A stretch of 64,000 nucleotides of DNA. Origin: Tabrizicola flagellatus (GTDB lineage Bacteria > Pseudomonadota > Alphaproteobacteria > Rhodobacterales > Rhodobacteraceae). The notes under the pieces were generated by a model that saw only the letters and a program-made list of their open reading frames with translations, was not told the DNA's origin and did not search any database. Below are positions 13,650 to 47,738 of the stretch, piece by piece; position 1 is the stretch's first letter, and every line of letters starts with the position of its first letter. Made by a program: the position numbers and the translations under genes. The stretch covers positions 186,001-250,000 of the forward strand of contig NZ_VMDU01000004.1 of the NCBI RefSeq assembly GCF_008271465.1. Direction: 5' to 3'.

Positions 13650-14068
13650 CTGCGCGGAGAGCCTGTAAGCCGGATTCTGTCCGGGGCCACACCTTGCGGC
13701 GGTTCCCCTGGATGACCATTCCTCTGCCGACCGTGTCGCCACGGCGGTCAAGCTGCCAACCCGGGCCTCTCGGGCGTTGGCATCCCTGCGGGCGGTATCC
13801 CGGACCAAGATCCGGGACCAGCCCCCGCGCGAGGCCCCTATTTGGCATTGCTCCGGGTGGGGCTTGCCGTGCCGGTCCGGTTGCCCGTCCCGCGGTGGGC
13901 TCTTGCCCCACCGTTTCACCATCGCCCTGCATGCAGGGCAGTCTGTTCTCTGTGGCGCTTTCCCTGGGGTTGCCCCCGCCGGGCATTACCCGGCACCCTT
14001 GCCAACGGGAGTCCGGACTTTCCTCGAGTGTCGCCACCCGCGGCCATCCAGCCCTCCGCGCGCGGCTC
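13650..14068 (-). ncRNA. rnpB: RNase P RNA component (class A)
   Basis: On the minus strand the conserved 5' region reads GAGGAAAGTCCGGACTCC (about 14010-14027), followed by GGGTAATGCCCGGCGGGGGC, CCACAGAGAACAGACTGCC, GGTGAAACGGTGGGGCAAGA and, near the 3' end, GACAGAATCCGGCTTACAGG (about 13663-13682). These are the universally conserved CRI, CRIV and CRV segments of bacterial type A RNase P RNA, the catalytic subunit that matures tRNA 5' ends. Length about 420 nt is typical. Ends are estimated from P1 pairing (GCCGCGCGCGG-like 5' strand against the CTCTCCGCGC region) and may be off by a few bases. Confidence 0.96.
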
Positions 14069-18905: not shown

Positions 18906-19373
18906 TCACTGACCGCGCCGTCCGGCAAAGAACCCCTTCAGCAGCGCCTCGGCCTCCGCCGCCCCGATCCCGTCATAGACTTCGGGGACGTGGTGGCACT
19001 GGGGATGGCTGAACACCCGCGCCCCTACCGCCACGCCCCCAGACTTCGGGTCCGCCGCCCCGTAGTACAGCCGCCCCACCCGGGCCGCACTGATCGCGGC
19101 GGCACACATCGGACAGGGTTCCAACGAGACATAGAGATCGCAGCCGACCAGCCTTTCCGAGCCCAGCACCCCGCAGGCCGCGCGGATCGCCAGCATCTCC
19201 GCATGGGCGGTGGGATCGGCCAGTTCCCGCGTCCGGTTTCCCGCCCGCGCCACCACCGCCCCGTCCCGCACCACAACCGCACCCACCGGCACCTCGCCCC
19301 TGGCCGCAGCCGCCCGCGCCTCCTCCAGTGCCAGGTCCATGAACGACCGGAACCCTTCGCGTTGCTCTTTCAT
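18906..19373 (-). CDS. tadA: tRNA-specific adenosine deaminase
   Basis: Zinc enzyme converting A34 to inosine in tRNA-Arg(ACG). In the 155-residue protein the zinc and catalytic residues are H57 and E59 (TAHAEM) and C87/C90 (EPCPMCAAA). Length and motifs match TadA. The annotated ATG (19371-19373) lies inside a dispersed repeat (GGACAGATGAAA), so the first 11 residues may be repeat-derived; an internal ATG at 19338-19340 (FMDLALEEAR) is the alternative start. It is divergent from rluB across the repeat. Confidence 0.93.
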   Translation of the reverse strand: MKEQREGFRSFMDLALEEARAAAARGEVPVGAVVVRDGAVVARAGNRTRELADPTAHAEMLAIRAACGVLGSERLVGCDLYVSLEPCPMCAAAISAARVGRLYYGAADPKSGGVAVGARVFSHPQCHHVPEVYDGIGAAEAEALLKGFFAGRRGQ

Positions 19374-19425
19374 CTGTCCTCAAATATCCTCGGGGGTCCG
19401 GGGGTGGAAAACCCCCGGGGCTGGC
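19368..19425 (+). repeat. Dispersed repeat, copy 1, with GGGGG/CCCCC hairpin
   Basis: TTTCATCTGTCC is followed by CAAATATCCTCGGGGG, then a hairpin of CCGGGGGT and ACCCCCGG. It occupies nearly all of the tadA-rluB divergent region, and its first bases form the tadA start codon on the minus strand. Same core as the copies near 29.4, 29.5, 32.3, 34.3, 36.5, 39.8, 41.6 and 46.1 kb. Confidence 0.85.
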
Positions 19426-29360: not shown

Positions 29361-29406
29361 CGGGGGCCAGCCCCCGGACCCCCGGGATATTTCTGGACAG
29401 ATGAAA
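29361..29406 (-). repeat. Dispersed repeat, copy 2 (reverse orientation)
   Basis: On the plus strand CCGGGGGC and GCCCCCGG form a tight hairpin, then CCCCCGGGATATTTCTGGACAG and ATGAAA follow, the reverse complement of the common core. It faces copy 3, which lies 115 bp away. Confidence 0.8.
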
Positions 29407-29520: not shown

Positions 29521-29574
29521 TTTCATCTGTCCACAAATATCCCACGGGGGTCCGGGGGTGTGAAACCCCCGGTC
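29521..29574 (+). repeat. Dispersed repeat, copy 3, with GGGGG/CCCCC hairpin
   Basis: TTTCATCTGTCCACAAATAT continues into CCCACGGGGGTCC, then a hairpin CCGGGGGT/ACCCCCGG with a GTGAA loop, closely resembling copy 1. It ends 8 bp before the acyl-CoA dehydrogenase stop. Confidence 0.85.
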
Positions 29575-36480: not shown

Positions 36481-36590
36481 GCCGAAATACTCCCGCCGGA
36501 GGCCGACCGAGCCGGTTGTGCCGCAGGCACAGAGGCGAGAGAAAAGTCTTGCGCCCGCAAGGGCGCGCAATTCGTCAGCCGTCCCGCCCG
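36481..36590 (+). repeat. Dispersed repeat, copy 6, extended form
   Basis: GAAATACTCCCGCCGGAGGC leads into CCGAGCCGGTTG, hairpin 1 TGTGCC/GGCACA (36517-36522, 36526-36531, loop GCA), then AGAGGCGAGAG, and hairpin 2 GCGCCC/GGGCGC (36551-36556, 36561-36566). The end runs past the permease stop at 36575. The stretch occupies almost the entire gap before prlC. The 5' TTTCATCTGTCC part is missing. Confidence 0.8.
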
Positions 36591-37366
36591 CGCATTCGCA
36601 TCCTCGCCTCGAACCTGCGCAACAGAAGCGACAGGCCGATGGTCATGACCAGGTAGAGGAAGGCCGCGACATTGTAGGTCTCGAAATAGCGGAAGTTGCC
36701 GGCTGCCGTGACCTTGGCCAGCTGCGCCACATCCGACACACCCAGCACGGCGACCAACGAACTGTCTTTCACCATTGCAACAAAATCATTGCCCAATGGC
36801 GGCAGGATCAGCCGTATCGCTTGCGGAAATCGAACATGGCGAAACCTCTGCCACCCGTTCAGCCCCAGCGCCTGCGCGGCCTCGATCTGGCCCTTGTCCA
36901 CCGCCTGAAGCCCGGCGCGGAAGATCTCGGCGAGAAAGGCCGAATAGGCCAGCATCAAGGCCAGCACCGCCCGCCACAACAGCGGCACATCGCGGGTGCG
37001 CACCAGTTCCTCTCCCGCCAGCGCGTTCACCCCGGCCACCACCCCCGGCACCAGCACGAAGGCGACGTAAAGCAGCAGCACCACGATCGGCACGCCTCGC
37101 ATCACCTCGATGTAGAGCCGCGCGATCTGCCGCACGACCACGAACCGCGACATCCCCATGACCGCGAGCCCCAGGCCCATCGCGCAGGCCCCCAGATAGG
37201 CCACGACCGCCACCGTCAACGTGACCGCCAGGCCCTTCGACAGCACCCGCAGCGCCGAGGCATAGACCTCGTCGGCCAGCATCTCGTACAAAAGCCAAAG
37301 GCCGGTGACGCACAGGATCACCAGCCACCAGGGAAAGTCCTTGTCGGGATCGGCGTTCGGGGCCAT
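36575..37366 (-). CDS. Amino-acid ABC transporter permease (HisM/GlnP type)
   Basis: Inner-membrane protein of 263 residues with a long N-terminal hydrophobic segment, a second at about 47-70, and the permease EAA loop ALGLNGWQRFRHVRFPQAIR (about 165-184) that contacts the ATPase. The RGVPIVVLLLYVAFVLVPG motif is typical of polar amino-acid importers. No ATP-binding gene is adjacent, so it must share an ATPase encoded elsewhere. It is 34 bp downstream of the binding-protein gene. Its stop codon lies inside the extended dispersed repeat. Confidence 0.88.
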   Translation of the reverse strand: MAPNADPDKDFPWWLVILCVTGLWLLYEMLADEVYASALRVLSKGLAVTLTVAVVAYLGACAMGLGLAVMGMSRFVVVRQIARLYIEVMRGVPIVVLLLYVAFVLVPGVVAGVNALAGEELVRTRDVPLLWRAVLALMLAYSAFLAEIFRAGLQAVDKGQIEAAQALGLNGWQRFRHVRFPQAIRLILPPLGNDFVAMVKDSSLVAVLGVSDVAQLAKVTAAGNFRYFETYNVAAFLYLVMTIGLSLLLRRFEARMRMRGRDG

Positions 37367-37400
37367 CGGATCGCCCCCGGCCCGCGCCGGGGGCTGTCCT

Positions 37401-38186
37401 TCACTCGCCCATCTTGTACTCGACGAACCACTTCTGGTTCAGCGCATCCAGCGTGCCGTCCGCCTTCATGCTCGCGATCGCCGCGTTGATCGGCGCGACC
37501 AGTTCCGAACCCTTCGGGAAGATGAAGCCGAAATCCTCCGAGGCCAGCGGTTCGCCGATGATCTTCAACCCGCCGTTCGAGGCCTGCACATAGCCGTTCG
37601 CCGCCGTCGAATCCGACAGGGTCAGGTCCACGTCGCCGGCCTTCAGCGCCTCGAGCCCCGCCCCAAAGGTTTCGAACTTGATGATCCGCGGGTTCTCCTC
37701 GTTGCCGTCCAGGATGTTGTAGACCGCCGCATAGAAGGGCGACGTCCCCGGCTGGGCCGAGATCAGAAGGTCCGGGTTCGCCGCAAAGCTTGCCGCATCG
37801 GTGAACCGCGCCTCATCCCCCCGCACGATCATCAGCATCTCCGACCGCATGTAGGGGTCGCTGAAATCGACCTTCTCCTTGCGCTCGTCCTTGATGGTGA
37901 TCCCTGTCATGCCGATGTCGTACTGCCCTTCGCTGACCGCCGGGATCATCGCGTCCCAGCTGGTGTTCTCATACTTGACCGTGATGTTCAGCCGCTTGGC
38001 GATCTCGGCCATGGCGTCGTATTCCCAGCCGATCGCCTTGCCCTCCTTGTCCAGGAACTGCAGCGGCGGGTAGGCGTTCTCGGTCACCACGACCACCTCC
38101 TTCCCGCCAAGGTCCGGCAGGTCCTGCGCCAGCGCGGGCGCAGTCAGGGCGGCAAGTCCAAGCAAGGCAGCAGCAGTCAGTTTCAT
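37401..38186 (-). CDS. Amino-acid ABC transporter substrate-binding protein
   Basis: Periplasmic binding protein of 261 residues: signal peptide 1-20 (cleavage after ALA), then a SBP_bac_3 domain with [33 protein letters not shown] and [20 protein letters not shown], characteristic of the glutamine/arginine/lysine-type family. The ligand is not determined; polar or basic amino acids are most likely. It precedes the permease gene in one operon. The divergent amidase gene starts 140 bp upstream, so a bidirectional promoter region lies between. Confidence 0.9.
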
Positions 38187-38326
38187 CGGTCCGTCTCCGG
38201 GGCTGATTGATCAAATCCCGACTATGCCATGCCCATGCGCCGATGCAAGGCGGGCCTTTGTCCGGCCGGTTCCCCCTTTTCAACCCGGCCGAACCGGTCC
38301 ACCCTGCCCGCAGAATGGAGCCGCCC

Positions 38327-39700
38327 ATGGACCCCGCCACGCTCACTGCCACCGCTCTGACCGACCTCATCCGCGCAAGGCAGCTGTCCGCGGTCGAGGC
38401 GGTGCAGGCGACGCTCGCGCGGATCGACCGGCTGAACCCCGCGCTCAACGCCATCGTCCAGCGGATGGATGACCAGGCCCTTGCCGCCGCCCGCGCCATC
38501 GACGCGCAGATCGCAAAGGGAGAGGATCCCGGCCCCCTCGCCGGCGTCCCCGTCACCGTCAAGGTGAACATCGACCAGGCCGGCTTCGCCACGACGAACG
38601 GCCTGAAGATCCAGTCCGACCTGATTGCGACCGAGGACAGCCCGCCGGTCGCGAACCTCCGCCGCGCCGGGGCCGTCATCGTCGGACGCACCAACACGCC
38701 CGCCTTCAGCTTGCGCTGGTTCACCCGCAACAGCCTGCACGGCGCGACGCGAAACCCCGCCTTCCCCGGCCTCACCCCCGGCGGATCATCCGGGGGCGCC
38801 GCGGCCGCAGCTGCCGCCGGCCTCGGCCCCATCGCCCATGGCACCGACATCGCGGGCTCCATCCGCTACCCCGCCCATGCCTGCGGCATCCATGGTCTCC
38901 GCCCCGGCCTCGGCCGTGTCCCCGCCTTCAACGCCACCGCGGGCGACCGGCTGATCGGCGGGCAGCTGATGGCCGTCTCCGGCCCCCTCGCTCGGTCGGC
39001 GGCCGACCTCCGCCTCGGCCACGCCGCGCTCTCGCAGCCAGACCCGCGCGATCCGTGGTGGACCCCCGCCACCTTCGCCCCCTACCGCAAACGCGCCGCC
39101 CTCGCCCTCGCACCGGACGGGTTGCAAACCGACCCCGCGATCCGGCAGACCCTGACCGCCGCCGCCCGAACTCTGGAAGCGAACGGATGGGAGATCGGCA
39201 CCCCGCCCCTCCCTCCCTTCCGCGAGGCGATGGAGCTGCAACTCACCCTCTGGCTCTCCGAATTCGGCCTCGGCGGCGCCGATGCCGTGGCCCGGGAAGG
39301 CGACCCCGACGCCAGCTTCGTCCACCGCGAACTCACGAAACTCGCCCCGCCGCCCACGCTCGAAAGCTTCATGCGCGCGCTTCAGTCCCGCGCCCGCCTC
39401 GCCCGCCTCTGGCGCGGCTTCTTCGCCGACTGGCCGGTCCTCCTGACCCCGGTCTCAGGGCAACTCCCCTTCCCCGACCACTACGACACCTCCAGCCCCG
39501 AGGCCTTCGCCGCCGTCATCGAAGCGCAAATGCCCCAGATCGCGCCCCCCTTCATGGGCTTTCCCGGCCTGACCGTCACCACGGGCCACACTCCAACCCA
39601 CCCCCTCGGCATCCAGGCCCTCGCCGACCGGGGGAACGAGCATATCCTCCTCGACCTCGCCGACCTCCTCGCCCCCGAAATCCCCGCCGTGACCCCGTAG
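38327..39700 (+). CDS. Amidase-signature family enzyme
   Basis: The 457-residue hydrolase has the Ser-cisSer-Lys triad: K79 (GVPVTVKVNID), S154 ([11 protein letters not shown]) and S178 (GTDIAGSIRYPA). The usual GTDTGGSIR reads GTDIAGSIR here, a double change in the oxyanion-hole loop. It probably hydrolyses a small amide; the substrate is unknown. ATG at 38327 has GGAG 6 nt upstream; an in-frame ATG at 38315 is less well placed. It is divergent from the binding-protein gene, so it may act on an amide taken up by that transporter. Confidence 0.85.
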   Translation: MDPATLTATALTDLIRARQLSAVEAVQATLARIDRLNPALNAIVQRMDDQALAAARAIDAQIAKGEDPGPLAGVPVTVKVNIDQAGFATTNGLKIQSDLIATEDSPPVANLRRAGAVIVGRTNTPAFSLRWFTRNSLHGATRNPAFPGLTPGGSSGGAAAAAAAGLGPIAHGTDIAGSIRYPAHACGIHGLRPGLGRVPAFNATAGDRLIGGQLMAVSGPLARSAADLRLGHAALSQPDPRDPWWTPATFAPYRKRAALALAPDGLQTDPAIRQTLTAAARTLEANGWEIGTPPLPPFREAMELQLTLWLSEFGLGGADAVAREGDPDASFVHRELTKLAPPPTLESFMRALQSRARLARLWRGFFADWPVLLTPVSGQLPFPDHYDTSSPEAFAAVIEAQMPQIAPPFMGFPGLTVTTGHTPTHPLGIQALADRGNEHILLDLADLLAPEIPAVTP

Positions 39701-39771
39701 GCCGGGCATCAGCCCGACTCTCCCCAAGCAAAAGACCACGTTCCCCGACGCAAGGCGTCCGATCCTCCCAG

Positions 39772-39897
39772 CTTCATCTGTCCAGAAATATCCCCGCCGG
39801 AGGCACGCCCGAGCCGGTTGGCGCGCAGCGCCAGAGGCGAGACAACAGGCTCGCGCGCAGCGCGCGATTCTGCAGCCGTTCCAACCCGCAAGACGCC
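39772..39897 (+). repeat. Dispersed repeat, copy 7, extended form
   Basis: CTTCATCTGTCCAGAAATAT, CCCCGCCGGAGGC, CCGAGCCGGTTG, hairpin 1 TGGCGC/GCGCCA (39819-39824 and 39828-39833, loop GCA), AGAGGCGAGAC, hairpin 2 TCGCGCG/CGCGCGA (39851-39857 and 39861-39867, loop CAG), then TTCCAACCCGCAAG. Compare the copies at 36481 and 46086. Confidence 0.88.
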
Positions 39898-39907
39898 CCT
39901 GCCCAAG

Positions 39908-39970
39908 GCGCCTCCCCTCCCCCTCCGTGGCGGTCGGGGCACTGCCACGACGATGGGGGTGAGGGGCCAG
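39908..39970 (+). repeat. G/C-tract palindromic element, intergenic copy
   Basis: CGCCTCCCCTCCCCCTCCGT, a central hairpin TGGCGGTCGGGGCACTGCCA, then GATGGGGGTGAGGGGCCAG. The flanks are roughly complementary C and G tracts and resemble the in-frame insertion at 14264-14312. Confidence 0.55.
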
Positions 39971-39980
39971 CGCGACTATC

Positions 39981-40053
39981 CTTAAGACCAGGTAAACGAA
40001 AAATGCCAAGCCTTTGATTTCAAAATGACTCCGGCGATTGTCCACCGTGGACA
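39981..40053 (-). repeat. Stop-proximal palindrome element, copy A
   Basis: Reading the minus strand it starts TGTCCACGGTGGACA 3 nt after the MoeB-like stop codon. GGAGTC, TTTTGAAA, CTTG and ATTTTTCGTTTA follow in the same order and spacing as in copy B at 62497. The first 15 bases are identical in both copies. Confidence 0.8.
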
Positions 40054-40056
40054 GAT

Positions 40057-41097
40057 TCAGTGCCGCCCCCCGCAGACCTCGCAATCGGCCCGCTTCTTCA
40101 CCCCGATCACCCGGGTCTCCATGTAGAGGGCATCGTGGATCATCAGCCGCCCCGCCAGCGTCTCCCCGGCCCCGGTGACCCACTTGACCGCCTCCATCGC
40201 CATCATCGACCCGATCACGCCGGGAAGCGGGGCCGCAACGCCCGCCTCGGCGCAGGTCGGCACCAGACCGGGGGCGGGCCTCACCGGGAAGACGCAGGCA
40301 TAGCACGGCCCCCCCTTCGCCGGATCGAACAGGCTGATCTGCCCCTCCCACTGGGTGATCGCCCCGGAAATCAGCGGCACCCCCGCCGCCACACAGGCCC
40401 GGTTGACCAGATAGCGGGTGTCGAAATCATCGGTCCCGTCCAGCACCAGATCGTAGTCCCGGACCAGGTCCACCGCGATCTCCTCGGTCAGCTTCCGATG
40501 ATAGGGCCGCACCTCGATGAACGGGTTCAAGGCCCGCATCGCGACCTCGGCCGAGAAGACCTTCGGCATCCCGATCCGCCCGTCGGTATGGATCACCTGC
40601 CGCTGCAGGTTCGACCCCTCGACCACGTCATGATCGATCACCCCGATCGTCCCCACCCCCGCCGCCGCCAGGTAAAGCAGGACCGGAGAGCCCAGTCCCC
40701 CCGCCCCCACGACCAGAACCTTCGCCCCCTTCAGCCGCTTCTGCCCCGGGCCGCCGATCTCGCGCAGGATGATGTGGCGGGCATAGCGGTCCAGCTCCGC
40801 CTCGCGGAAGGTCCCCGAGGGCGCCAGCGGTGCGGCAGGTTCCGGGGCCTTGCGCCGCCGCAGCGCCCGCAGCAGTTCGCGATAGCCAAGGACGACAGCC
40901 GCAAGCAGCCCGAACACCGTCCAGCCCGGCAAGTCTCCCCCGACGACCCTCGCCATCGGGTTTTCCACCTGAGACGGCAGATGCACGACCATCAGGATCG
41001 CCCACCAGCCTGCCGCCAGCAGCAGCAGCCATCGCTCGCCCCACCCGCGCCACCGGGCCAAAGCCCAAAGCCCGATGAACCCCAGAAGTCCGATCAC
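40057..41097 (-). CDS. ThiF/MoeB/HesA family adenylyltransferase with N-terminal membrane segments
   Basis: E1-like enzyme of 346 residues that would adenylate the C-terminus of a small sulfur carrier (MoaD or ThiS type). Two or three hydrophobic helices (about 3-14, 22-40, 58-72) precede the catalytic domain ([15 protein letters not shown], nucleotide loop GAGGLGSP at 131-138, [13 protein letters not shown]). Zinc cysteines are in CYACVFP and CEVCGGRH. The membrane anchor is unusual for MoeB, though it recurs in related bacteria. The 5' end overlaps the dut stop by 4 nt (ATGA). Its 3' side carries a stop-proximal repeat. Confidence 0.85.
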
Positions 41098-41564
41098 GAC
41101 CGCATCCCGGTCGAGCCGAACCCGCCCGTCCCCCGCGCCGTCTCGTCCAGCAACTCGACCACCGCAAAGCCCACCTGCACTACCGGCGCCACCACGACCT
41201 GCGCCACCCGGTCGCCATGCCGCACCGTGTAGGCTTCCGTCCCGAGGTTGACCAGCGACACCCCCAGCGGCCCCCGGTAATCGCTGTCGATCGTGCCGGG
41301 AGTGTTCGGCAGGGTGATCCCGTGCTTCGACGCCAGACCCGAGCGCGGCCGCACCTGCATCTCATACCCTTCGGGCACCGCCACCCGGATCCCCGTCGGA
41401 CAGATCGCCCGCTGCATCGGCGCCAGCGTCAAGCCGGCCGCGCGCGCCTCGACGGGGAAGTTCGCGCACAGATCCGCCCCCGCCGCCCCTGCAGTCTGAT
41501 AGGCGGGCAAGGGCAGGCTACGGTCGGCCCAGTCTTCCCACACCACCTGAACAACCGGCCCCAT
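41094..41564 (-). CDS. dut: Deoxyuridine 5'-triphosphate nucleotidohydrolase
   Basis: Trimeric dUTPase (dUTP to dUMP plus PPi), 156 residues. Motifs in order: [32 protein letters not shown] (catalytic Asp), GDRVAQVVV and the C-terminal P-loop-like [13 protein letters not shown] at 41562-41564 has AGGTGGGG just upstream; that site directly follows the dispersed repeat (GGACAGATGAAA), so the repeat forms the 5' leader. dut lies downstream of coaBC on the same strand, 56 bp away, and overlaps the MoeB-like gene. Confidence 0.95.
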
Positions 41565-41573
41565 CGCCCCACC

Positions 41574-41610
41574 TTTCATCTGTCCGCAAATATCCCCGCC
41601 GGAGGCTCCC
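41574..41610 (+). repeat. Dispersed repeat, copy 8
   Basis: TTTCATCTGTCCGCAAATAT then CCCCGCCGGAGGC. It fills most of the 56-bp space between coaBC and dut, both on the minus strand, so it is transcribed as part of the dut leader. Confidence 0.85.
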
Positions 41611-41620
41611 GCAGCCGCAA

Positions 41621-42814
41621 TCAGCGCAAGGCCTCGGCGATCCGCGCCGCCAGCTTCCGCGCGACCTCGTCCTTGCCCATCCGGGGCCAAGCCTCGGCGC
41701 CCACCTCCGAGATCAGCACCACCGCATTCTCGGCCCCGCCCATGATCCCGGTCCCGGGCGAGACGTCATTCGCCACGATCCAGTCGCAACCCTTGCGCGC
41801 CCGCTTGGCCGTGGCATGGGCCACGATATCCGTAGTCTCAGCCGCGAAGCCCACCACCAGCCGGGGCCGCCTCGCCCCCTTCGAGACCGTGGCCAGAATG
41901 TCCGGGTTCTCGGCGAACTCCAGCGCCGGGGCCTTGCCCGACCCGTCCTTCTTCAGCTTCTGCCCGCTCGCATTGGCCACCCGCCAGTCCGCCACCGCCG
42001 CTGCCATCACCGCCGCGTCGGCCGGCAGCGCCGCCTCGACCGCCGCCGCCATTTCCTGCGCCGTCTCCACTCGCACGACCTCCACTCCGCCGGGCGGAGG
42101 CACGGTCGCGGGCCCCGTCACGAACGTCACGCGGGCGCCAAGATCGCGCAGCGCGGCGGCCAGCGCCGTCCCCTGCGCACCCGAAGACCGGTTGGCGATG
42201 TAGCGCACCGGATCGATCGGCTCATGCGTCGGACCCGAGGTCACGACCACATGCTTCCCCGCCAAGGGCCCACCCCCAAGCGCCGCGCCGATGGCCTGAA
42301 CGATCGCCGCCGGCTCCGCCATCCGCCCCGGCCCGTATTCGCCGCAGGCCATCTCGCCCTCGTCCGGGCCGACGAACAGCACCCCGTCGCCCCGCAGCAC
42401 CGCAAGGTTCCGTTGCGTCGCTGGATGCTGCCACATTCGCACGTTCATCGCCGGCGCCACCAGCACCCGCTTGTCCGTCGCCAGAAGCAGCGTCGAGGCC
42501 AGATCGTCGGCCCTCCCCCCCGCCATCTTCGCCAGCAGATCCGCCGTCGCCGGGGCCACGACCAGCAGGTCCGCCGCACGCGACAGCTCGATATGCCCCA
42601 TCTCGGCCTCGGAGGTCAGGTCGAACAGCGCCTCGTGCACCTTCGACTTCGCCAGCGCCCCCACCGACAGGGGCGTCACGAATTCCGCCCCCGCACGGGT
42701 CAGGACCGGAACCACCGTCCCGCCCGCCTTCTGGATCAGCCGGATCAGCTCCAGCATCTTGTAAGCCGCGATCCCGCCCCCGATCACCAGAAGTATGCGC
42801 TTGCCAGACAACAT
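41621..42814 (-). CDS. coaBC: Bifunctional phosphopantothenoylcysteine decarboxylase/synthetase
   Basis: Coenzyme A biosynthesis enzyme of 397 residues. The N-terminal CoaC flavoprotein domain (1 to about 180) has [33 protein letters not shown] and the active-site cysteine in [14 protein letters not shown]. The C-terminal CoaB domain (about 185-397) has [20 protein letters not shown] and the catalytic lysine region QKLKKDG. ATG at 42812-42814 has GGAGA 7 nt upstream; an earlier in-frame ATG at 42829 is possible. Confidence 0.95.
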
Positions 42815-42904
42815 CGGCAGGTCTCCCATGGCCTGCCATCAGGTGTAGGGGGCACGGGGGCCAACATCAACACCCTGCCCGCCCCGCACGAGACGCCGAG
42901 CCAC

Positions 42905-42925
42905 CTGCGCGTCCTTCACGCGCAG
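42905..42925 (-). terminator. Hairpin between rpoH and coaBC
   Basis: CTGCGCGT (42905-42912) pairs with ACGCGCAG (42918-42925) around a 5-nt loop, 80 nt after the rpoH stop and 90 nt before coaBC. No T run. It may end or process the rpoH transcript. The rest of this 190-bp gap is featureless. Confidence 0.35.
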
Positions 42926-43004
42926 GCTGCAAGACACAGGCTTGCACCGCAAGGTGCTCGATTCGGCAGGCGTCCGGGAGTGAACAGCGTCAGGGCCGGA
43001 GCGG

Positions 43005-43883
43005 TCAGGCCAGGAAATGCCGCACCTCGCGCGACTGCATCTCCAGCGACCGGCGCATCTTGGCGAAGGCCGCGGCCTCAAGCTGGCGAACGCGTTCCTT
43101 GGACAGTCCCAGTTCCTCGCCGAGCGATTCCAGCGTCCGGCCTTCATCCTTCAGCTTGCGTTCGGAAACGATGTAGCGCTCGCGCGCGTTCAGGCCCTGC
43201 ATCGCCTTGACCAGCCAGCCCCGCAACCGTGCACCGTCATGCGCATCCTCGACCGCTTCGGCGGCCTGTTGGCCCTCATCCTCCAGCGCGTCGATCCATT
43301 CGCGCCCGTCCTCGTCGGACGATTGCGTCGCGTTCAACGAAAAATCCGTGCCTGAAAGCCGACCTTCCATCATTTCCACATCGGCCACCGGCACACCAAT
43401 GTCGGCTGCCACCATCTGCCGCAGCTGGTGCTGGTCCAGCACCTCGCCGCGCTGCGAGGCCTCGCGTTCCAGCTTGGCCTGGACCCGCCGCAGGTTGAAG
43501 AACAGCGCCTTCTGGCTGGATGTGGACCCGGTCCGCACCATCGACCAGTTGCGCATCACATAGTCCTGGATCGAGGCCTTGATCCACCAGACGGCATAGG
43601 TGGAAAAGCGCACGCCGCGTTCGGGGTCGAACTTGTCGGCGGCCTTCATCAGGCCAAGGCTCGCCTCCTGGATCAGGTCGTTCATCGGTGCGCCGTAGCG
43701 GCGGAACTTCGCGGCCATGCTGATCGCCAGGCGCATGTAAGCGGTGATCAGCCGGTGCAAGGCGCGTTCGTCTCGCCGGTCCCGCCAGGCGCGGGCCAGT
43801 TGCAGCTCGGTCTCGGCATCGAGAAGCTCGGCCTTCATCGCTTGGCGCGACACGTTCAGATCGGTATATCCGTCAAGAGCCAT
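43005..43883 (-). CDS. rpoH2: RNA polymerase sigma-32 family factor, RpoHII type
   Basis: Alternative sigma factor of 292 residues. Region 2 has AYMRLAISMAAKFRRYGAPM, LIQEASLGLMKAADKFDPER and GVRFSTYAVWWIKASIQDYV. The RpoH box QKALFFNLRR follows, and region 4 ends LGLSKERVRQLEAAAFAKMR. Rhodobacterales carry two RpoH proteins; the sequence MALDGYTDLNVSRQAMKAEL and the region between 2 and 4 look like the RpoHII branch linked to singlet-oxygen and heat stress. ATG at 43881-43883 has GGAGGTGG upstream. Divergent from cobU. Confidence 0.9.
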   Translation of the reverse strand: MALDGYTDLNVSRQAMKAELLDAETELQLARAWRDRRDERALHRLITAYMRLAISMAAKFRRYGAPMNDLIQEASLGLMKAADKFDPERGVRFSTYAVWWIKASIQDYVMRNWSMVRTGSTSSQKALFFNLRRVQAKLEREASQRGEVLDQHQLRQMVAADIGVPVADVEMMEGRLSGTDFSLNATQSSDEDGREWIDALEDEGQQAAEAVEDAHDGARLRGWLVKAMQGLNARERYIVSERKLKDEGRTLESLGEELGLSKERVRQLEAAAFAKMRRSLEMQSREVRHFLA

Positions 43884-43949
43884 GACCACCTCCAGATCAT
43901 CCTGCCGCGGCGGTTCCGCCTGTTCTTGTCCGTCTTACGAGGCCAAACC

Positions 43950-44480
43950 GTGACTGGATCACTTCCGCCCCTCACTTTGGTCATCGGCGGCGCGCGGTCG
44001 GGCAAATCCGCCTTCGCCGAAGGCCTGGTCGCCGGCTCTGGCCGCCCCCGCCGCTATATCGCCACGGCCGAAGCCTGGGACGACGAGATGCGCGACCGCA
44101 TTGCCCGGCACCGCGCCGACCGGGGCACCGGCTGGATCACCGTTGAGGCCCCGCTCGACCTGGCCGCCGCCCTGGCCGCGGTCCGGGCCGAGGAGGCGGT
44201 GCTGGTCGATTGCGCCACGCTCTGGCTGACCAACCATCTGCTCGCCGACCACGACATTGCCGCCGAGACCGGGCGCCTGCTTGCCGCCCTGTCCGACTGC
44301 CCGGCCCCGGTCGTCATCGTCAGCAACGAAACGGGATGGGGAATCGTTCCCGAGAACGCGCTCGCCCGACGGTTTCGGGACGAACAGGGCCGGCTGAACC
44401 AGCGGCTTGCCGGCGACGCGGACCTGGTGGTTGCCGTCATGGCCGGCCTCCCCATGGTCCTGAAGAGCAGTCTTCCGTGA
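43950..44480 (+). CDS. cobU: Adenosylcobinamide kinase/adenosylcobinamide-phosphate guanylyltransferase
   Basis: Bifunctional enzyme of cobalamin nucleotide-loop assembly, 176 residues. P-loop GGARSGKS at 13-20, then RRYIATAEAWDDEMRDRIARH, including the guanylyl-accepting histidine, and VIVSNETGWGIVPEN near the C-terminus. GTG at 43950 is the start; the long in-frame extension 5' of it is antisense to rpoH. Its stop overlaps the start of the next gene (GTGA). Other cob genes are not in the window. Confidence 0.92.
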   Translation: MTGSLPPLTLVIGGARSGKSAFAEGLVAGSGRPRRYIATAEAWDDEMRDRIARHRADRGTGWITVEAPLDLAAALAAVRAEEAVLVDCATLWLTNHLLADHDIAAETGRLLAALSDCPAPVVIVSNETGWGIVPENALARRFRDEQGRLNQRLAGDADLVVAVMAGLPMVLKSSLP

Positions 44481-45043
44481 CCCGGTTCTGGCTCGTCCGC
44501 CACGGACCGACCCATGCGAGGACGATGATCGGCTGGACCGACCTGCCGGCCGACCTCTCGGACCGCGCCGCGCTCGCCCGACTGTCCGCGCATCTTCCCG
44601 CGGGGGCGCCCGTCATCTCCTCCGACCTGTCCCGCGCCATCGCCACCGCCGATGCGCTGGGGAACCGCCCGCGCCTGCCGCACGACCCGGACCTGCGCGA
44701 GATCCATTTCGGCGCGTGGGAGGCCCGCGGTTTCGCCGAGGTCGAGGCCGAGCAGCCCGATCTGATCCGCGCCTTCTGGGACCAGCCGGGCGAGGTGCGC
44801 CCGCCCGGCGGCGAAAGCTGGAACGCGCTGACCGCGCGCACCTGGTCGGCGCTGGACCGCCTGCGGGGCGCTGCCCAGGACATCGTTGTCGTCGCCCATT
44901 TCGGCCCGATCCTCGCCGCCCTGCAACGCGCCGAGGGCCTGACGCCCGGGCAGGTCTTCGCCCATCGCATCGACACCCTATCGGTCACCTGTCTCACCTA
45001 CGGCCCCCCGCCCCGCGTGTTCGCAATCAATCACCGTCCGTGA
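44477..45043 (+). CDS. Histidine phosphatase family protein, CobC-like
   Basis: The 188-residue protein has the phosphohistidine RHG motif (residues 8-10 in FWLVRHGPTH), SSDLSRAIATADAL and VVVAHFGPI with the second catalytic His. The family includes CobC (alpha-ribazole-5'-phosphate phosphatase) and phosphoglycerate mutase-like phosphatases. Translational coupling to cobU (GTG overlapping TGA) supports a role in cobalamin assembly. The start GTG encodes the first residue of a canonical fold, so no upstream start is needed. Confidence 0.8.
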   Translation: MTRFWLVRHGPTHARTMIGWTDLPADLSDRAALARLSAHLPAGAPVISSDLSRAIATADALGNRPRLPHDPDLREIHFGAWEARGFAEVEAEQPDLIRAFWDQPGEVRPPGGESWNALTARTWSALDRLRGAAQDIVVVAHFGPILAALQRAEGLTPGQVFAHRIDTLSVTCLTYGPPPRVFAINHRP

Positions 45044-45116
45044 TGCAACCGGCCACGATTCTTCGTTTCCCTTGCCCGACGCCGCAGGGTTCAATGCGCG
45101 GGAAAGGACAACAGAC

Positions 45117-45989
45117 ATGACCTATGACCTCGTGATCGGCGACCGCGCCTATTCCAGCTGGAGCCTGCGCGGCTGGCTGCTCTTCGACGCCTTCGGCATC
45201 CCCGTGCGCACGATCTCGGCCCGGCTCTACACCGACGAGCTGGCGACCGTGCTGCGCGATTTTCCCCCGGCGCGCACCGCCCCCACGATGCGCACCCCCG
45301 AAGGCTCCGTCGTCCCCGAGACCATCGCCATCGCCGAGGAACTCGCCACCCGCCACCCGGAGGCCGGGATCTGGCCGCAAGAGCCGCAAGCCCGCGCCAC
45401 CGCCCGGGTCCTCGCTGCCGAGATGCACGCCGGCTTCAGCGCGCTCCGCAGCCATTGCCCGATGAACCTGCGGGTCAGCTACACCGACTGCCAGCCGCCT
45501 CAGGAGGTCCTGGCCGACCTCCGCCGCCTGGAGACGCTATGGTCCTGGGCACGTCGGACGACGCGGTCCACCACGCCCTGGCTCTGCGGCGCCTATTCCG
45601 CGGTGGATGCCTTCTTCGCCCCCGTCGCCAGCCGGATCGCCACCTATAACCTGCCGGTCGATGCCGAGGCCATGCTCTACGTCAACGCGCACCTCGCCCA
45701 TCCGAGTTTCCGCCGCTGGCGCGCGATGGGGATGGTGGACGGCGCCGACCAGGAGTTCTACCGCCGCGACTGGCCCCGCCGCGACTGGCCCGGCCCGGTG
45801 CCCCTGCCCGCGCGCGCGGTCGACTGCGCCGACACCGTGAACGCGGCCTGCCCCTATTCCGGCAAGCCTGTCACCCATGCGCTCGAGCTTTACGGGCGCC
45901 GCTTCGGCTTCTGCAACGCCTTCTGCCGCGACAAGACCCTGGCCGACGCCGAGGCCTGGCCGAAATTCATGGCGCTTTACCACTCGTAA
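45117..45989 (+). CDS. Glutathione S-transferase-like protein
   Basis: The 290-residue protein has an N-terminal thioredoxin-fold domain (about 1-80: YSSWSLRGWLLFDAFGIPVR, then EGSVVPETIAIAEELATRHP) and an all-helical C-terminal domain with LCGAYSAVDAFFAPV. The Ser in YSSWS takes the GST catalytic position. A C-terminal extension (about 230-290) contains four cysteines (CADTVNAACPYSG and CNAFCRDK) in a YHS-like arrangement, which is not part of a usual GST. ATG at 45117 has GGAAAGGAC upstream. Confidence 0.82.
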   Translation: MTYDLVIGDRAYSSWSLRGWLLFDAFGIPVRTISARLYTDELATVLRDFPPARTAPTMRTPEGSVVPETIAIAEELATRHPEAGIWPQEPQARATARVLAAEMHAGFSALRSHCPMNLRVSYTDCQPPQEVLADLRRLETLWSWARRTTRSTTPWLCGAYSAVDAFFAPVASRIATYNLPVDAEAMLYVNAHLAHPSFRRWRAMGMVDGADQEFYRRDWPRRDWPGPVPLPARAVDCADTVNAACPYSGKPVTHALELYGRRFGFCNAFCRDKTLADAEAWPKFMALYHS

Positions 45990-46085
45990 ACCAATTCGCC
46001 CTACCCGTTAACCAAGGTGAATCGGGTGGGGCGCCATGCAGGGACGTCACGACAACAGGTCTCGAACGGCGGCCGCGGCCCCGGC

Positions 46086-46215
46086 CTTTCATCTGTCCGC
46101 AAATATCCCCGCCGGAGGCACCGCCCGAGCCGGTTGCGCGCCTCTGGCGCGCAGAGGCGAGACAAAAGGCTTGCGCGAAGCGCGCATTTCCGTACCCGGT
46201 CCAACCCGCGAGGCG
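46086..46215 (+). repeat. Dispersed repeat, copy 9, extended form
   Basis: TTTCATCTGTCCGCAAATAT, CCCCGCCGGAGGC, CCGAGCCGGTTG, hairpin 1 TGCGCGCC/GGCGCGCA (46135-46142 and 46146-46153, loop TCT), AGAGGCGAGAC, hairpin 2 TGCGCG/CGCGCA (46172-46177 and 46181-46186, loop AAG), then GTCCAACCCGCGAG. It fills most of the GST-yifB gap and ends 5 bp before the yifB start. Confidence 0.88.
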
Positions 46216-46220
46216 CCGCG

Positions 46221-47738
46221 ATGACCGCCCGCGCCTATACCGTCGCCTTCGAAGGGGTGGAGGCCCGCCTGGTCGAGGTCCAGTGCGCCGTCTCGCCCGG
46301 TGCCCCGGCCTTCATGCTGGTCGGCCTGCCCGACAAGGCGGTCTCCGAGGCGCGGGAGAGGGTCCGCGCCGCCTTGCAGGCCCTGTCCATCGCCCTGCCG
46401 GCCAAGCGCATCACCGTCAATCTTTCGCCCGCCGATCTGCCCAAGGAAGGGTCGCATTTCGACCTGCCCATCGCGCTCGCGCTCCTCGCCGCGCTCGACA
46501 TCGTCCCGCGGGAAGAGGTCGAGGGCACAGTGGCCCTCGGCGAGCTGTCGCTCGATGGCCGGCTGATCGCCGTGGCCGGGGCCTTGCCGGCGGCGATGGC
46601 GGCGGCGGTCGAGGAGCGGACGCTTCTCTGCCCCAGGGCCTGCGGGGCCGAGGCCGCCTGGGTCGGCGCGACCACGGTCCTCGCCCCCGCCTCGCTGGAC
46701 GAGGTCTTGCAGCACTACACCGGTCGCCGCCCGCTGATACCGGCCGAGGCAGGCGAGGTCCGCGCCGGCGCCCCGCCCCGCGATTTCCGCGAGGTGAAGG
46801 GCCAGGAACGCGCCAAGCGCGCGATGGAGATCGCCGCCGCCGGTCGCCACCACCTGTTCCTGGTGGGCACACCCGGCTCGGGCAAGTCGATGCTGGCCGC
46901 GCGCCTGCCCGGCATCCTGCCGCCCCTGTCCGCGCCCGAGGCGCTAGAGACTTCGATGATCCATTCGCTTGCGGGGCTTCTGACCGAAGGCGGCATCTCG
47001 CGCGAGCGGCCGTTTCGCGAGCCGCATCATACCGCCTCGATGGCCGCGATCATCGGCGGCGGGCGCGGGGCGAAACCGGGCGAGATCAGCCTGGCGCACA
47101 ACGGCGTCCTGTTCCTGGACGAGTTCCCTGAATTTCCCCGCATGGTGCTCGACACGCTGCGACAGCCGATCGAGACCGGAAGCGTCATGGTCGCGCGCGC
47201 CAATGCCCATGTCCGCTATCCCTGCCGCTTCCTGCTGATCGCCGCCGCCAATCCCTGCAAGTGCGGCTACCTGACCGACCCCGCCCGCGCCTGCGGCCGG
47301 ACGCCGATCTGCGGCGAAGACTACCTCGGCCGCATTTCAGGACCGCTGATGGACCGGTTCGACCTGCGGGTGGAAGTCCCGCCTGTCGCCTTCGCCGATC
47401 TCGACCTGCCAGCGAACGGCGAAAGCTCGGCCAGCATCGCCGCCCGCGTCGCCGCCGCCCGCGACCGGCAGACCGCCCGCTTCAAGGACAGCCCCACCCT
47501 GCGCGTGAACGCCGATCTGGAAGGCGCGGCGCTGGAGGATCATGCCGCCCCCGATGCCGAAGGCCGCGCCCTGATCGGCCGGGTGGCCGAGCGCATGGGG
47601 CTTTCGGCACGCGGCTACCATCGCGTCCTGCGCGTCGCACGCACCATCGCCGACCTGGACGGCAGCGCATCGGTCCGCAAGCCGCATGTGGCCGAGGCGA
47701 TCAGCTTCCGCCTCGCCTCGGCCACGGGCGGGCTTTAG
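46221..47738 (+). CDS. YifB family magnesium chelatase-like AAA+ ATPase
   Basis: The 505-residue protein has an N-terminal ChlI/Lon-like domain (about 20-170: FMLVGLPDKAVSEARERVRA, KRITVNLSPADLPKEGSHFD), an AAA+ core with Walker A GTPGSGKSM (about 218-226) and Walker B NGVLFLDEFPEF, and a C-terminal YifB domain with zinc-like cysteines (CKCGYL, CGRTPICGEDY). Related to ComM, a branch-migration helicase in natural transformation. ATG at 46221 directly follows the extended repeat. Its TAG overlaps the convergent dimethylglycine dehydrogenase stop by 4 bp. Confidence 0.92.
   Translation: MTARAYTVAFEGVEARLVEVQCAVSPGAPAFMLVGLPDKAVSEARERVRAALQALSIALPAKRITVNLSPADLPKEGSHFDLPIALALLAALDIVPREEVEGTVALGELSLDGRLIAVAGALPAAMAAAVEERTLLCPRACGAEAAWVGATTVLAPASLDEVLQHYTGRRPLIPAEAGEVRAGAPPRDFREVKGQERAKRAMEIAAAGRHHLFLVGTPGSGKSMLAARLPGILPPLSAPEALETSMIHSLAGLLTEGGISRERPFREPHHTASMAAIIGGGRGAKPGEISLAHNGVLFLDEFPEFPRMVLDTLRQPIETGSVMVARANAHVRYPCRFLLIAAANPCKCGYLTDPARACGRTPICGEDYLGRISGPLMDRFDLRVEVPPVAFADLDLPANGESSASIAARVAAARDRQTARFKDSPTLRVNADLEGAALEDHAAPDAEGRALIGRVAERMGLSARGYHRVLRVARTIADLDGSASVRKPHVAEAISFRLASATGGL

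Follow-up and report, generated by a model that had tools for sequence, protein, structure and literature searches.

A clade-specific, modular and structured intergenic element inherited in place in Tabrizicola and its relatives

The genome of Tabrizicola flagellatus carries a dispersed intergenic element built of serial hairpins, which is clade-specific, modular and structured, and which is inherited in place. It is described here from a stretch of 64,000 nucleotides (NCBI RefSeq assembly GCF_008271465.1, contig NZ_VMDU01000004.1, positions 186,001 to 250,000 of the forward strand; hereafter the window). The order on the plus strand is head, hairpin 0, CCGAG, hairpin 1, CGAGACAAAAGG and hairpin 2, with CGAGA and often CAAAAGG after hairpin 1 and, after hairpin 2, often TC and then an A/T-rich stretch. 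The stems keep pairing while their letters change, both from copy to copy and from genome to genome at the same site. Our favoured reading, to which we give slightly less than an even chance, is that the element is a modular structure of mRNA 3' ends or intercistronic RNA which is inherited in place and would be similar to the repetitive extragenic palindromes (REPs) and bacterial interspersed mosaic elements (BIMEs).

Pairing across copies and at orthologous sites

The original prediction named three copies and six stems, all of which are present in the sequence as described; as a total for the window three fell short, a covariance model (R1, see below) having found a diverged fourth copy (Table 1). 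The pattern GAGCCGGTTG-N8-36-AGAGGCGAGA has 14 exact matches in the same genome (9 on one strand, 5 on the other), and its reversed control has none. A scan of named genomes gave at least 117 stretches, and among the 80 listed names nearly all are Rhodobacter, Tabrizicola and related Rhodobacterales. The set of 132 copies used below consists of these 14 and of 118 others, taken from the matches listed, three of 135 motif matches (L074, L075 and L165) having been removed as chance before counting.

Among these copies there are 61 distinct hairpin-1 strings with a mean of 4.38 contiguous Watson-Crick pairs, and when the 3' halves of hairpin 1 were re-dealt the mean was 1.27 and the maximum 2.16 in 2000 deals. 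Pairing is thus kept while letters change, as had been proposed. In alignment A1, which holds 81 chosen copies, the covariation score is 0.416; shuffles give 0.089, and sliding the partners gives no more than 0.090. Six pairs of A1 are changed on both sides, which is not above shuffles (484/500 as high), and since the search pattern dictated the linkers of A1 their constancy there is uninformative.

Orthologous sites were chosen via the neighbouring protein, without use of the motif. For the site of copy 3, a Mg-chelatase/ComM-like gene was matched in 31 of the 32 genomes of the genus, and the element is present at 25 of the 30 loci examined; for the site of copy 1, the gene of an ATP-binding cassette transporter permease was matched in 32/32, with an R1 match at 24 of the 30 loci examined. 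In the in-place alignments of the two sites (A2 and A3), which were fitted to R1 and take in no locus without an R1 match, the covariation scores are 0.158 versus 0.044 and 0.276 versus 0.066, and none of 500 shuffles reaches either; for pairs changed on both sides, the excess in the alignment scoring 0.276 is only weak (43/500 shuffles as high). All 25 model matches at the ComM-like site preserve CGAGA, and 22 of them preserve CGAG. Among 165 copies ascertained by motif there are 33 groups whose members have at least one flank in common, at a matching distance. By our own model-based scores covariation is therefore above background across copies and in place, the counts of pairs changed on both sides being not all above shuffles, and it supports the proposed selection on a folded RNA or on palindromic DNA. 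The folded form may be RNA or single-stranded DNA, and template-switch repair of palindromes could be the source of part of the covariation.

Not only letters but whole hairpin-1 designs have been exchanged at the copy-1 site, where the usual design is found at 7 of the 24 matched loci and the other 17, two of which deviate by one letter, have CCGAGGAGGA...GACGACGAGA, a second design. At another locus of this site (L298), outside the count of 24, the element is visible by eye, with GACGACGAGAC-like units in tandem on the 3' side only. A further one (L303) has no model match and instead a palindrome, CCGTCCCGGACGCGATGCCGGGACG, which by eye is similar to the CGTC REPs discussed at the end.

The model R1 (78 positions, 11 pairs) was built from 81 copies with ordinary hairpin lengths chosen from 119 references. 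At an E value of up to 0.1 it matches the T. flagellatus genome 32 times; 17 of these matches reach at least 62 bits, the next one reaches 44.8, and the weakest may be chance. The exact pattern occurs in 32/32 genomes of the genus, in 0/5 genomes from other genera of the family and in 0/24 genomes from other families of the class. With R1 at E up to 0.001 and stricter filters, 23 of 246 family genomes match: T. flagellatus and one relative from the genus with 19 matches each, six genomes with 6–12, three with 2–4, and 12 with a single match, which in most of the 12 is weak and may be chance.

Fold, strand and modular build

The stems first described for hairpin 1 are present, and hairpin 1 probably extends further out than first drawn, with GCC and GGC of the "constant" linkers pairing. 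Around hairpin 1, RNAalifold predicts GCC/GGC pairing and a C4-G39 pair when no structure is supplied, GCC/GGC is closed in the minimum-energy fold of 61/61 hairpin-1 strings with canonical flanks, and in one copy (L275) the outer stem is changed from GCC/GGC to GCG/CGC, which is a compensated change. Three copies (L266, L276, L284) are fully paired at the region where canonical copies have GGTT opposite AGA, and the second design could hold three tandem G-A units. Of six genomes of other genera (20 stretches), four have the usual form with little or no change, and two (G150 and G158, 10 stretches) have by eye other purine-rich internal loops, such as GGA/GGA, GGA/GCA and GAAA/GAAA.

The flanks 5'-CGAG...CGAG-3' of hairpin 1 could pair C-G, G·A, A·G and G-C, which we take to be the tandem sheared G-A motif. 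The loop of hairpin 2 on the plus strand is GNA or GNNA in 98 of 131 copies and the mirror TNC or TNNC in one (copies that are partly orthologous and so not independent; one of the 132 is without hairpin 2). These loop types, together with the near-constant flanks CCGAG...CGAGA capable of tandem G-A pairs, point to the plus strand as the strand that folds, which is thereby supported, not proven.

The head is pyrimidine-rich with AAATATCCCC or AAATACTCCC as its 3' end; in the form tested it is present in 120 of 162 copies, the others having different heads. In the window it is AAATACTCCC in copy 1 and TTCATCTGTCCNNAAATATCC in copies 2 and 3, and CCGCCGGAGGC comes next, which in these three copies is able to form the 3-bp hairpin GCC-GGA-GGC. 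This is also the commonest form of hairpin 0 (53 copies); the hairpin-0 loop is GGA in 63/115, and some copies have a large GC hairpin. The T. flagellatus genome contains 29 exact heads, of which six precede the usual core, one (L023) precedes a fully paired variant and most of the others precede a large GC hairpin. Single heads, likewise 29, lie in sense (12), antisense (11), convergent (3) and divergent (2) context, with one unclassed. By eye, many heads with a large GC hairpin (e.g., that at 19369–19419) contain a single C run but two G runs (GGGGGTNNGGGGG...CCCCC), which could give rise to two competing stems.

At seven loci (L052, L084, L088, L089, L117, L130 and L158), six of them from Rhodobacter sp. 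Har01, the usual core stands behind a different upstream part, mostly like AAGCGTCGCGTCGATGCCGGGCGGCC, which by eye appears to be head exchange. With copy 2 as sole query, no match was obtained in phages, and in plasmids only the head matched, on two, NZ_CP014598.1 of Salipiger (86.0 percent) and NZ_CP081095.1 of Leisingera (91.7 percent). Carriage of the element by phages or plasmids was rejected on this result, and the head may have a wider distribution than the core.

Table 1. Copies, parts of copies and other features located in the window
Feature	Position	Strand	Basis
Copy 1, end of head (AAATACTCCC) and hairpin 0 (GCC-GGA-GGC)	36481–36503	+	sequence
Copy 1 core: CCGAG, hairpin 1 TGTGCC-GCA-GGCACA, CGAGA linker, hairpin 2	36505–36585	+	R1, 78 bits
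Copy 1 hairpin 2, GCGCCC-GCAA-GGGCGC	36551–36566	+	part of core
Copy 2 head (TTCATCTGTCC..AAATAT) and hairpin 0	39773–39804	+	sequence
Copy 2 core, hairpin 1 TGGCGC-GCA-GCGCCA	39807–39882	+	R1, 73.6 bits
Copy 2 hairpin 2, TCGCGCG-CAG-CGCGCGA	39851–39867	+	part of core
Copy 3 head and hairpin 0	46088–46119	+	sequence
Copy 3 core, hairpin 1 TGCGCGCC/GGCGCGCA	46123–46202	+	R1, 75.4 bits
Copy 3 hairpin 2, TGCGCG-AAG-CGCGCA	46172–46186	+	part of core
Copy 4, diverged: hairpin 1 CCTGCGCGT/ACGCGCAGG, hairpin 2 GCACC-GCAA-GGTGC (stems by eye)	42894–42976	+	R1, 37.3 bits, E 8e-7
Head and hairpin 0, without core	41575–41606	+	sequence
Two heads face to face, without core	29387–29405; 29522–29540	-; +	sequence
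Head with large GC hairpin, without core	19369–19419	+	sequence
RNase P RNA gene, class A	13650–14059	-	246.5 bits

All the copies had been said to lie between genes of the same orientation. The elements themselves are all on the plus strand, but the neighbouring genes differ in orientation around copies 1–3: by our own open-reading-frame (ORF) caller, trained on these loci, copy 1 is flanked by two minus-strand genes, copy 2 by convergent genes and copy 3 by two plus-strand genes. Copy 4 is flanked by two minus-strand genes. Copy 3 stands just upstream of the Mg-chelatase/ComM-like gene (Pfam Mg_chelatase, ATG at 46221).

Gene context and competing readings

When 13 copies near a locus edge and three inside a predicted ORF are left out, 116 of the 132 copies can be classed by gene context: 46 are convergent, 37 sense, 29 antisense and 4 divergent. 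In background gaps of 100–800 bp, those bearing the element included, 106/364 are divergent. Most copies stand directly at the 3' end of a gene, and few lie between divergent genes. In 55 of the 74 copies with a minus-strand gene at the hairpin-2 side the stop of this gene is at most 60 bases from AGAGGCGAGA, and in 19 of the 37 sense copies the preceding stop is 46–67 bases upstream of GAGCC.

Since the copies lie mostly beside stop codons or fill gaps between same-direction genes, the element is most likely transcribed as part of mRNA 3' untranslated regions or of intercistronic RNA. We infer that in such RNA its serial GC-rich hairpins would most likely act as a barrier to 3'-to-5' exonucleases and determine where the mRNA ends, and that hairpin 1, through its near-constant flanks, would probably provide a recognition site. 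It has been suggested for R. sphaeroides that structured RNA may stop decay by polynucleotide phosphorylase (PMC7866481). Several points weigh against such an mRNA structure. The loops of hairpin 1 are mixed (GCA in 37, GAA in 12, CTTG in 22, CCTTC in 17 and TCTTC in 8 of the 132 copies). The energies of the two strands differ only slightly, though in the direction expected, the plus strand being lower in 75/131 copies with RNA parameters and in 93/131 with DNA parameters. The 37 sense and 29 antisense copies between same-direction genes are not what a one-strand RNA function alone predicts, and an exonuclease barrier alone needs no near-constant flanks.

A more far-reaching and rather doubtful extension is that the element is a new class of structured RNA acting at mRNA 3' ends throughout the genome, whose hairpins, themselves free to evolve, would present a constant motif to a clade-specific RNA-binding protein or nuclease that defines many 3' ends. 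The motif would be the tandem sheared G-A pairs from CGAG/CGAG together with the linker ACAAAAGG, and three interchangeable hairpin-1 designs, with the internal loop GGU/GA, with three G-A units or fully paired, would have one role.

Unlikely, in our judgment, is a transcription terminator, perhaps bidirectional, formed by the hairpin-2 region with a U-run from CAAAAGG on the minus strand, and by long hairpins of two facing heads. In an intrinsic-terminator scan three of the six terminator-like sites between 33000 and 48000 of the window are on the minus strand over hairpin 2 of copies 1, 3 and 4 (copies 1 and 4 being flagged through an alternative stem, CTTGC/GCAAG), and a fourth site ends within the head of copy 3; copy 2 is unflagged, and the six sites compare with a shuffle mean of 5.9. 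An inverted head partner stands upstream in 23/90 testable copies versus 0/450 simple shuffles (11/32 convergent, 7/22 antisense, 3/32 sense and 2/4 divergent), and the scarcity of copies between divergent genes would also suit a terminator. However, the A-run (U-run on the minus strand) is not longer where a minus-strand gene ends at the hairpin (mean 3.18, n = 55, versus 3.27, n = 41; permutation p 0.74), there is likewise no difference in the T-run that follows hairpin 2 (p 0.42), and in 21 of the 37 sense copies the next start is 42–74 bases past AGAGGCGAGA, which leaves little room for a promoter. A terminator tuned to gene context was rejected on the negative run-length test.

It is still less probable that the element is a selfish repeat without host function, similar to REPs or miniature inverted-repeat transposable elements and spread by a transposase acting on single-stranded hairpins. 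Copies dispersed on both strands, the exchange of hairpin-1 designs at one site and a REP-like location pattern (PMC3733652) fit such a repeat, but the same site is occupied in 25/30 and 24/30 loci of the genus, and at a site located independently of the motif the stems vary more than the flanks. Nor was a Y1 (REP-type) transposase (PF01797) found above cut-off in the 28 of 32 genus genomes that were searched, two matches lying below it; a REP moved by its own REP-associated tyrosine transposase (RAYT) was rejected on the same search. Equally little weight is given to a DNA palindrome whose perfection is maintained by template-switch repair, or to a DNA site bound by protein as a cruciform or single strand: the stems are GC-rich and near-perfect, GNA triloops are stable in DNA too and the DNA parameters favour the plus strand in the 93/131 copies, but repair alone leaves the near-constant flanks, the one-sided hairpin-2 loops and the divergent-gap scarcity unexplained.

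The element provides a natural record of a folded structure evolving by compensatory change at fixed sites, with designs swapped at one place, in a genus where the search just described found no REP-type transposase. Through it one can test whether REP-like palindromes at gene 3' ends are maintained by selection as structures of the host or are remnants of mobile DNA, and R1 is an example of a covariance model usable for annotation.

Comparison with known systems

At gathering scores Rfam recognises only RNase P in the window, and the region of copy 2 gives no match up to E 1, by which a known RNA family was ruled out. The original prediction knew of no named element of this kind, and none was recognised in the literature searched, which took in only a minority of subscription papers.

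BIMEs in enterobacteria and RIME (Rhizobium-specific intergenic mosaic element)/ABC elements in rhizobia are mosaic intergenic elements of palindromic units and constant joints, a build that, compared by description only, the element shares. Unlike the element, BIMEs are built of REPs, and REPs are tied to RAYT transposases.

In the Rhodobacterales, the HRC-8-4 motif is a terminator-like intergenic hairpin with conserved letters, mainly between cco operons (PMC8632094). The element belongs to the same order and is likewise intergenic, with a hairpin and conserved letters, but it is genome-dispersed and without a strong U-tract. HRC-8-4 and the S-adenosylmethionine/S-adenosylhomocysteine (SAM/SAH) RNA upstream of metK (PMC2864571), both from Rhodobacterales, were rejected as candidates because they are tied to particular loci.

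The CGTC REPs of alphaproteobacteria, as described in PMC3733652, carry the tag CGTC (or TGTC/CCTC) unpaired at one end of a palindrome. The element differs in having no CGTC, TGTC or CCTC tag, the foot of hairpin 1 being CCGAG...CGAGA in A1 and at the orthologous sites; its outer pairs are G-C, C-G and C-G, with no A/T pairs at the start of the stem; and it combines two or three unlike hairpins, always in the same order and joined by constant linkers, with CGAG...CGAG at the foot of hairpin 1. By the same description, both are short palindromes present in many copies, which for the most part stand in unidirectional or convergent gene gaps near the 3' ends of upstream genes, and both have paired units (mostly head-to-head dimers in REPs), stem variants and no dedicated transposase (for the element, none above cut-off in the 28 genus genomes searched). 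The element thus follows the pattern given there for the REP superfamily: it is multi-copy, extragenic, near gene 3' ends and rare in divergent gaps.

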